Assembly: GCA_022641375.1 (NCBI GenBank)
Contig: JALCDF010000008.1
Span: 1-44,485 of the forward strand
DNA length: 44,485 bases
Reading direction: 5' to 3'
From: Megasphaera sp.
GTDB taxonomy: Bacteria; Bacillota; Negativicutes; Veillonellales; Megasphaeraceae
Part shown: piece by piece, positions 27,600 through 29,953 of the stretch
How positions within the stretch are numbered: the first letter of the stretch is position 1
How the letters are laid out: every line of letters begins with the position of its first letter
Notes under the pieces: generated by a model
What the model saw: only the letters and a program-made list of their open reading frames with translations
Databases searched by the model: none
Told to the model about the DNA's origin: nothing
Made by a program: the position numbers and the translations under genes

Positions 27600-27995
27600 A
27601 TGGATCTACAATATGTAAAAGGCAGTTATATGGCTGAAATCATGTTTGAAGACAGACCTGTTTTATTTACTCTTGAAGGATTGGATGAAGGCAGGGATTC
27701 CGAGGCTCTCCGCTATAGTATGATGATATGGGACTGGGTAAAAGACCATCGTTCTCGTGTAATCGCCCATGCGCCGCTTATCGCTAACTTTAAAAATAAA
27801 AAGTGGCGGAATGATGATGAACCGGAAGTCTCTGCGGAAGAAATTGCCGATTCCTTACGATGCATTAATTCCGTTCATGCGAATTATGAAGGAAATTTTG
27901 ACATATTTTTTGATGCCTACGGCCTGTTCGAGGAACGGTCCCTGGTGGTCAGTATGGGTAAAAATTTCTTATTCAAAGGCTTCAAGATTCTTTAA
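27600..27995 (+). CDS. Small soluble protein, possible DUF2262 domain
   Basis: The 131-residue product is acidic, has no signal or membrane segment and includes ALRYSMMIWDWVKDHRSRV and a final block with GNFDIFFDAYGLFEERSLVV. That last block resembles the DUF2262 pattern of a tyrosine/phenylalanine-aspartate strand before a short L-F turn; this is a memory-based match and uncertain. GGGAGGG lies ten bases before the ATG. It has its own strong promoter. The SCIFF precursor promoter starts two bases after its stop, with no terminator between, so its transcript may run into the SCIFF operon. Confidence 0.75.
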   Translation: MDLQYVKGSYMAEIMFEDRPVLFTLEGLDEGRDSEALRYSMMIWDWVKDHRSRVIAHAPLIANFKNKKWRNDDEPEVSAEEIADSLRCINSVHANYEGNFDIFFDAYGLFEERSLVVSMGKNFLFKGFKIL

Positions 27996-27997
27996 TG

Positions 27998-28026
27998 TTG
28001 TAGAAACTCACGCAATGTGGTAGAAT
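27998..28026 (+). promoter_or_regulatory. Promoter of the SCIFF operon
   Basis: TTGTAG (27998-28003) and TAGAAT (28021-28026) are 17 bases apart, directly after the stop codon of the preceding gene and about 30 bases before the precursor start. Confidence 0.7.
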
Positions 28027-28056
28027 AGTAATAATCTTGACAGTGAGGTGAATACA

Positions 28057-28197
28057 ATGGCAAAACATATTATTACGATTAATACAGAATCGATTCAAAA
28101 GACAGCACAGCATGCCGGCTGTAGTGAATGCCAGACATCATGCCAGTCTGCCTGCAAGACTTCTTGCACGGTTGGCAATCAGATTTGTAACAAATAA
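28057..28197 (+). CDS. scfA: SCIFF ranthipeptide precursor (six cysteines in forty-five residues)
   Basis: A 46-residue peptide with GAGGTG as ribosome site. The leader part begins MAKHIITINTESIQKTAQ and the core has six cysteines at 22, 25, 29, 33, 37 and 44, with the very conserved SCQSACKTSCTVGNQIC. This is the SCIFF family (TIGR03973), the precursor of a thioether-bridged ribosomal peptide. In a studied clostridial homologue the maturase joins a cysteine to a threonine five residues on; the matching pair here would be C33 and T38. The maturase gene follows 63 bases later. Products of this family are widespread in Clostridia, but their role is unknown. Confidence 0.95.
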   Translation: MAKHIITINTESIQKTAQHAGCSECQTSCQSACKTSCTVGNQICNK

Positions 28198-28214
28198 TGA
28201 ATGATTAAGGGGAC

Positions 28215-28247
28215 ACCCTTTACCTCACGGTAAAGGGTATTCTTTTT
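28215..28247 (+). terminator. Hairpin with T-run between SCIFF precursor and maturase (likely partial terminator)
   Basis: ACCCTTTACC at 28215-28224 and GGTAAAGGGT at 28229-28238 form a perfect ten-pair stem with a four-base loop, followed by ATTCTTTTTG. It ends just before the maturase ribosome site (GGAGG, 28252-28256). It probably lowers maturase expression relative to precursor. Confidence 0.8.
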
Positions 28248-28260
28248 GTATGGAGGAACT

Positions 28261-29694
28261 ATGGCTGAGATAAAACCGATGATACATAAATATTGCCAAA
28301 ATGGAACCTATATGCTCCTTGATGTCAACAGTGGCATCATCAATGTCATTGATAAGATGACCTATGATGTATTGGATGTATATGATGGTACCAATAAGGC
28401 TGCTGTATATGCAAAATTTGCTGGAATATATGATAGAAAAGATTTAGATGAAACGTTGGAAGAATTAGATGGGCTGATTGCTAAAGAAATGCTTTTTGCC
28501 CCGATGACGGAAAACTTTAAAGTCGTTGCGGAAGAAGAACCGGTCATCAAGTCCTTGTGCCTGAATATTGCCCATGATTGTAACTTACGGTGTAAATATT
28601 GTTTTGCTTCGCAGGGAGATTACGATACGCACAAACGGGAACTGATGCCCTTTGACGTTGCCAAACGGGCCGTGGATATGCTGATCAAAAGTACGGAAGG
28701 AAAACGGCAGCATTGCGAAATCGATTTCTTTGGCGGCGAACCGCTCATGAATTTCGGGGTTGTCAAACAAACGATCGAATATATTCGGCAGCAGGAAAAA
28801 ATTCATGATAAGGTTTTTAAATTGTCCCTGACGACCAACGGGATGCTGCTCGATCCGGACAAGGTGAAATATCTGACAGATCATCACATCAGCCTGATCC
28901 TGAGCCTGGATGGCCGTCCGGAAATACACAATCGCATGCGCCCGGATGTCGGCGGGCATGGCTCCTATGATACGTGTGCCAAGAATCAGGTATATGCCGC
29001 CAAACACCGCCATGGGGAAGAATATTATGTGCGGGGTACCTATACCAAATACAATCTGGATTTCACCAAAGACGTAGAACATATGGCGGATCTGGGATTC
29101 GAAGGCTTGTCCATGGAACCGGTTGTGGGCGATGATCTTTCGTATGCCATTACAAAAGATGATTTGCCGCGTATTTTTGATGAATATGATCATCTGACAA
29201 AATTCTACTTACAACGCATGGATGAAGGACGTCCCTTCATCTATTATCACTTCATCATGGACTTATATCGCGGTCCCTGTATTGCCAAACGCCTTCGCGG
29301 CTGTGGTGCCGGCCATGAATACATGTGCATTGTTCCGAACGGGGATATCTATCCGTGCCACCAGTTTGTCGGGCAGGACGGCTATGTCATCGGCAACGTC
29401 TACGAAGGGGTTACCAATACGGAATTACCGCCGCTGTTCCGGGATATGCATGTATTGAATAAACCGGAATGCTGCAAGTGCTGGGCTAAATTCTTCTGCA
29501 GCGGCGGGTGTCATGCCAACAACATTAAATACGGCGGAAACATTCAGACACCGTATAAACTGAGCTGTGAAATTCAAAAGAAACGCATAGAATGCGCCAT
29601 GTATATACAGGCTGTATTGGCACTGAAGGGACAAAAAGCCCGCCTTTTCGGGGATGGACCGGAAGACTGTGGAGGATGTAGCGCCTGTGATTAA
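28261..29694 (+). CDS. scfB: SCIFF peptide maturase, radical SAM/SPASM thioether-forming enzyme
   Basis: Radical SAM enzyme that installs thioether bonds in the SCIFF peptide. The 477 residues begin with a peptide-recognition-like region (MIHKYCQNGTYMLLDVNSG), then the SAM cluster C107-NLR-C111-KY-C114, FFGGEPLMNF, and a SPASM/twitch region with further cysteines (CGAGHEYMC, GDIYPCHQF, ECCKCWAKFFCSGGC, LSCEIQKKRIEC), enough for two auxiliary clusters. The end is CGGCSACD. Start at 28261 fits GGAGG at 28252. A TTG at 28246 would put the ribosome site inside the gene. Matches TIGR03974. Confidence 0.93.
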   Translation: MAEIKPMIHKYCQNGTYMLLDVNSGIINVIDKMTYDVLDVYDGTNKAAVYAKFAGIYDRKDLDETLEELDGLIAKEMLFAPMTENFKVVAEEEPVIKSLCLNIAHDCNLRCKYCFASQGDYDTHKRELMPFDVAKRAVDMLIKSTEGKRQHCEIDFFGGEPLMNFGVVKQTIEYIRQQEKIHDKVFKLSLTTNGMLLDPDKVKYLTDHHISLILSLDGRPEIHNRMRPDVGGHGSYDTCAKNQVYAAKHRHGEEYYVRGTYTKYNLDFTKDVEHMADLGFEGLSMEPVVGDDLSYAITKDDLPRIFDEYDHLTKFYLQRMDEGRPFIYYHFIMDLYRGPCIAKRLRGCGAGHEYMCIVPNGDIYPCHQFVGQDGYVIGNVYEGVTNTELPPLFRDMHVLNKPECCKCWAKFFCSGGCHANNIKYGGNIQTPYKLSCEIQKKRIECAMYIQAVLALKGQKARLFGDGPEDCGGCSACD

Positions 29695-29881
29695 ATTAAA
29701 GCGATTCCTATGGGCCATCGTTTTTATCTATTTGCTATACGCGCTCATAAAAGATGGCGTGTCTATCGAGATTGGCGGCCTTTTCGCATTGGCCGTCGTC
29801 GTGTATCTGGTACAGGAATTGGTAAATAGCACAGCCTATAAAAAATGGAAAAATCATAAGATACAGAATCATAAAAGGTAG
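29687..29881 (+). CDS. Two-helix membrane peptide of the SCIFF operon, function unknown
   Basis: A 64-residue frame begins at a GTG that overlaps the end of the maturase gene by eight bases, with GGAGGA at 29671-29676. An ATG at 29654 in the same frame has no comparable site. The product has helix 1 (RFLWAIVFIYLLYALI), a short polar loop (KDGVSIEIGG), helix 2 (LFALAVVVYLVQELV) and a basic tail (KKWKNHKIQNHKR), so both ends probably face the cytoplasm. The terminator stem includes its stop codon. No known family is recognised; export, anchoring or protection linked to the peptide is possible but unproven. Confidence 0.7.
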   Translation: MIKLKRFLWAIVFIYLLYALIKDGVSIEIGGLFALAVVVYLVQELVNSTAYKKWKNHKIQNHKR

Positions 29882-29908
29882 GAGAATTTTTCTTCTATCT
29901 TTTTTTTT
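29872..29908 (+). terminator. Rho-independent terminator of the SCIFF operon
   Basis: AGGTAGGAGA at 29876-29885 pairs fully with TCTTCTATCT at 29891-29900 (ten pairs, three G-T) around a five-base loop, extended by four A-T pairs, and nine Ts end it at 29900-29908. The stem contains the stop codon of the upstream membrane peptide. Confidence 0.8.
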
Positions 29909-29953
29909 ATACAAAAGAGCACTTATTTTGTACAAATTCTAGCAAAAGGACAC

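Follow-up and report, generated by a model that had tools for sequence, protein, structure and literature searches.

A SCIFF ranthipeptide operon of Megasphaera and the small membrane protein gene that adjoins it in Megasphaeraceae

Introduction

SCIFF (ranthipeptide) systems are best known in Clostridia, where they have been credited with a role in signalling or quorum sensing; sporulation genes and the agr locus are reportedly affected (PMC8102284; PMC8326336). In the published SCIFF chemistry, a thioether joins the fourth cysteine of the precursor to a threonine two or five residues further on (PMC8326336), and proximity of a maturase gene, within about 500 bp, has been applied as a criterion for SCIFF precursors (PMC5300114). 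In the open literature we found no paper on SCIFF in Negativicutes. A metatranscriptome study reported a “sactipeptide-like” radical SAM cluster of Veillonella parvula that is up-expressed at low pH (PMC6284299), and this cluster is possibly a SCIFF system.

The locus described here lies in a 44,485-nt stretch of Megasphaera sp. DNA (contig JALCDF010000008.1, our contig C8), hereafter the window, from a genome that is 78.8% complete. The features described for the window are all on the plus strand. The class sample used for comparison held 250 Negativicutes genomes, including 61 of Veillonellales.

Results

An earlier note on this DNA had claimed a complete SCIFF precursor and maturase pair in a member of the Negativicutes, and the family searches bear this out, as both proteins exceed the curated cut-offs. 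The precursor gene scfA (28057..28197) encodes 46 residues that match TIGR03973 over its full length (positions 1-43 of 43; 76.2 bits, cut-off 50, E = 1.3e-21) and PF13165 (79.4 bits, cut-off 27, E = 1.8e-22). In its six cysteines (Cys22, 25, 29, 33, 37 and 44), its 46 residues and its place upstream of the maturase gene, ScfA resembles known SCIFF precursors of TIGR03973/PF13165 with no difference of note, and scfB starts 63 nt past its end, inside the published 500-bp distance. Thr35 and Thr38 sit two and five residues past the fourth cysteine, Cys33; these three residues correspond to Thr34, Thr37 and Cys32 of CteA, respectively (PMC8326336).

The maturase gene scfB (28261..29694) encodes a radical SAM/SPASM protein of 477 residues that scores 575.7 bits against TIGR03974 (cut-off 425), and residues 6-451 align to the solved maturase CteB, 5WGG (5WGG/5WHY, 503 bits). 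Like CteB, it retains the radical SAM CX3CX2C cysteines, here within CNLRCKYC (C107, C111 and C114), and the SPASM-region cysteines (C340, 348, 366, 404, 407, 413, 417 and 436), all of them invariant in a 14-sequence alignment. Judged by this likeness, ScfB should link Cys33 of ScfA by a thioether to a downstream threonine, either Thr35 or Thr38. Unlike CteB, it carries a clade-specific C-terminal tail, QKxRLFGD..CxGCxAC (29636-29694), which was seen in 7 of 16 loci from Megasphaeraceae. The tail recalls either the way cysteines are spaced in the SCIFF core or a cluster-binding motif, and the DNA encoding it includes the start of the small gene described below.

The earlier note called the system best known in Clostridia and drew attention to a diderm Negativicutes version of it. 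Such a version is not unusual, SCIFF being near-universal in the class. ScfB exceeds its cut-off in 231 of the 250 genomes and in 14 of 15 from the genus of the window, and scfA was found in 58 of the 61 Veillonellales; the pair was therefore to be expected in this genome. So wide a presence across the sampled Negativicutes is easier to reconcile with a core role than with an antimicrobial role.

The full set of elements proposed for the locus, namely a promoter, scfA, a hairpin, scfB, an overlapping two-helix reading frame and a terminator, could be located. The promoter (27998..28026) consists of TTGTAG and TAGAAT separated by 17 nt, with an extended -10 (TGG), and the same spacing occurs in 10 loci; among the scf promoters of 10 species TTGTAGA does not vary at all and TGTGGTAAAATA hardly varies. 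A simple consensus scan did not pick it up because its -35 element is weak. This single conserved promoter would transcribe scfA.

The gap between scfA and scfB holds a terminator-like hairpin (28215..28247), with a stem at 28215-28238 followed by a T-rich tail. A hairpin is present at this place in 10 of 10 compared loci, with an entirely different stem sequence in three of them (L003-L005). We propose that it acts as a leaky attenuator or terminator favouring precursor over enzyme: placed 3' of scfA, it would stop most transcripts and leave the precursor in excess, while read-through would yield ScfB. Four Veillonella-like loci (L018, L019, L027 and L134) have a scfA-scfB gap of about 220 nt or more and second-promoter-like sequences upstream of scfB. 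At the far end of the locus, folding places an intrinsic terminator at 29873..29911 (stem 29873-29903 plus a T-run), which overlaps the last codons of the small reading frame; a comparable terminator directly 3' of this frame is not evident in L003-L005 and L007.

The small reading frame (29687..29881) encodes 64 residues with two predicted transmembrane helices, and its description as an unrecognised membrane peptide tightly coupled to scfB is confirmed. It overlaps the end of scfB by 8 nt (GTGATTAA), and a GGAGG lies about 11 nt upstream of its start, which is most likely the GTG at 29687 rather than an in-frame ATG further upstream. Translation would proceed from the scfB message through this start-stop overlap. 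The frame, the length and the two-helix pattern are retained across nine relatives, and dN/dS is about 0.1-0.25 for pairs with estimable dS; the small frame is a real gene. Its product evolves much faster than ScfB, with 64% identity between the window and locus L002 against 91% for the maturase. From the distribution of charges, the protein probably forms a hairpin whose two termini are cytoplasmic, with a basic C-terminal tail. No family of Pfam or NCBIfam covers it. A candidate identity, TIGR04086, was rejected, as none of ten small proteins matched it at E<=0.1, and family scans gave no match to SecDF. Structure prediction from 17 sequences yielded a three-helix model of low confidence (pLDDT 68, pTM 0.34), for which the PDB contained no match at E<=10. 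A search of plasmids for homologues found none.

The earlier note would have given up the coupling had the membrane peptide been absent or non-conserved beside scfB in close relatives. Such is not the case: the small gene lies directly 3' of scfB in every one of the 16 Megasphaeraceae genomes containing the two genes, at a spacing of -8 to +24 nt in each locus read and with a start-stop overlap in several. By profile search the family is single-copy and occurs in 52 of the 61 Veillonellales genomes, and none was found among the non-Veillonellales genomes of the 250-genome sample. Megasphaeraceae and orphan members align over both helices with an hhalign probability of 97%, a score to be read with the caveat that, for short two-helix proteins, homology is less readily established than a profile score suggests. 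The orphan proteins (Dialister-like, Veillonella-like and f3) share with the Megasphaeraceae ones the motif Y..Y.(I/L)...G, the two transmembrane helices and the basic tail; they differ in being unlinked to scf and, in the Veillonella-like members, in longer, charged C-termini. The neighbours of their genes vary by group: sucD or a PAP2-type gene in the Dialister-like genomes, the exonuclease III gene xthA in the Veillonella-like ones and a peroxiredoxin gene in f3. Names for these neighbours, as for the anonymous families, were read by eye.

A dedicated SCIFF component would be expected to be linked to scfAB wherever both occur and to be absent when SCIFF is absent. Linkage is found in 16/16 Megasphaeraceae genomes and in 0/34 genomes of other Veillonellales families that have both; in 10 of these 34 the two are separated by 139-1601 kb on one contig, and in 24 they are on different contigs. 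Genome G193 (99% complete) retains the small gene and lacks scfA and scfB, as does the incomplete G247 (75%), and eight SCIFF-bearing genomes have no detectable copy. The claim of a third SCIFF component thus stands as to adjacency within Megasphaeraceae and falls elsewhere, on the 0/34, on retention without SCIFF and on the eight genomes without a copy; the small protein is probably just a neighbour and not a third SCIFF component. One apparent co-loss, in G235, was rejected, since sufB of the same region was also not found and the genome is 82% complete, so that the joint absence of scf and small gene carries no weight.

Discussion

We consider it likely that the locus is an ordinary SCIFF operon followed by a co-transcribed gene whose product, a small membrane protein, probably has a different function. 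The protein would be a member of a two-helix inner-membrane family that extends across Veillonellales and works independently of SCIFF, and its gene would have settled behind scfB no later than the common ancestor of Megasphaeraceae and then stayed. The comparison also defines this family of small membrane proteins in Veillonellales, which has no name as yet.

The most durable of the other explanations is that a two-helix protein already present was recruited in Megasphaeraceae to partner SCIFF, for example by anchoring ScfB or ScfA in the inner membrane or by passing the modified peptide on to an exporter. It draws on the unbroken adjacency and translational overlap in this family and on the fate of the surrounding block: a DUF2262-like gene, scfA, scfB and the small gene form the Megasphaeraceae arrangement, which is kept while the genes flanking it differ between two genera (g1 and g2), and this may hint at some selection for togetherness. 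Membrane neighbours also recur, since the clostridial locus L034 has TIGR04086 upstream of scfA and SecDF downstream. Such clostridial SCIFF loci likewise place membrane-protein genes beside scfAB, but these are of different families, neither of which the small protein matched in the scans; a search of Megasphaera genomes did not detect TIGR04086, and where other Negativicutes have it, the listed positions are distant from scfB or on a different contig. The unlinked homologues, the SCIFF-free genomes that retain the gene and its divergence, much faster than that of ScfB, argue against recruitment as well, and we regard it as unlikely. A shade more doubtful is the specific claim that, in Megasphaeraceae, the translationally coupled protein, once a member of a free-standing family, brings the maturase, or what the maturase produces, to the inner membrane; if true, this placement would give a first handle on the site of action of SCIFF in diderm Negativicutes.

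The DUF2262-like gene (27600..27995, 131 aa; Pfam PF10020 at E = 1.9e-5, below the cut-off) lies directly upstream of scfA, and it adjoins scfA in 16/16 scf-bearing Megasphaeraceae genomes. With the small gene on the other side equally constant, the block could be regarded as a small operon of Megasphaeraceae that carries SCIFF as one passenger, with the DUF2262-like protein, the SCIFF pair and the two-helix protein serving one process. Yet scfA is served by a promoter of its own, immediately 3' of the DUF2262-like gene, and in f3 the DUF2262-like gene is unlinked to scfA (four genomes) and to the small gene. We consider a shared process very improbable. In G217 the DUF2262-like gene is in two overlapping pieces (G217:C22:30251-30639), suggesting a frameshift. 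A chance frame over the end of scfB and the terminator, to which the shortness of the frame, its GTG start and its 3' end within the terminator stem might point, can be dismissed almost with certainty, being ruled out by the codon pattern, by the features kept in nine relatives and by the free-standing homologous genes elsewhere.

The preferred reading, an ordinary SCIFF operon with a probably independent neighbour, also draws support from the genes behind scfB in other lineages. The comparison that the earlier note had called for, across Negativicutes and Clostridia, went against a general membrane peptide, as the gene that follows scfB depends on the lineage. It is hypF in Veillonella and a number of further families, CggR/gapA in still others and SecDF in Lachnospiraceae, whereas Dialister-like and f3 genomes have genes for exported proteins without a name. 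No gene behind scfB common to the whole class was found. A tight, family-wide operon link between a small reading frame and a RiPP maturase can be lineage-limited, which here became visible through a wider comparison. Three exported-looking proteins of locus L127 had no family in Pfam; they come from a run behind scfB (L127:6332-9455) of proteins of about 150, 400 and 480-550 aa, a run also seen in L126 and L128-L131 of Dialister-like and f3 genomes.
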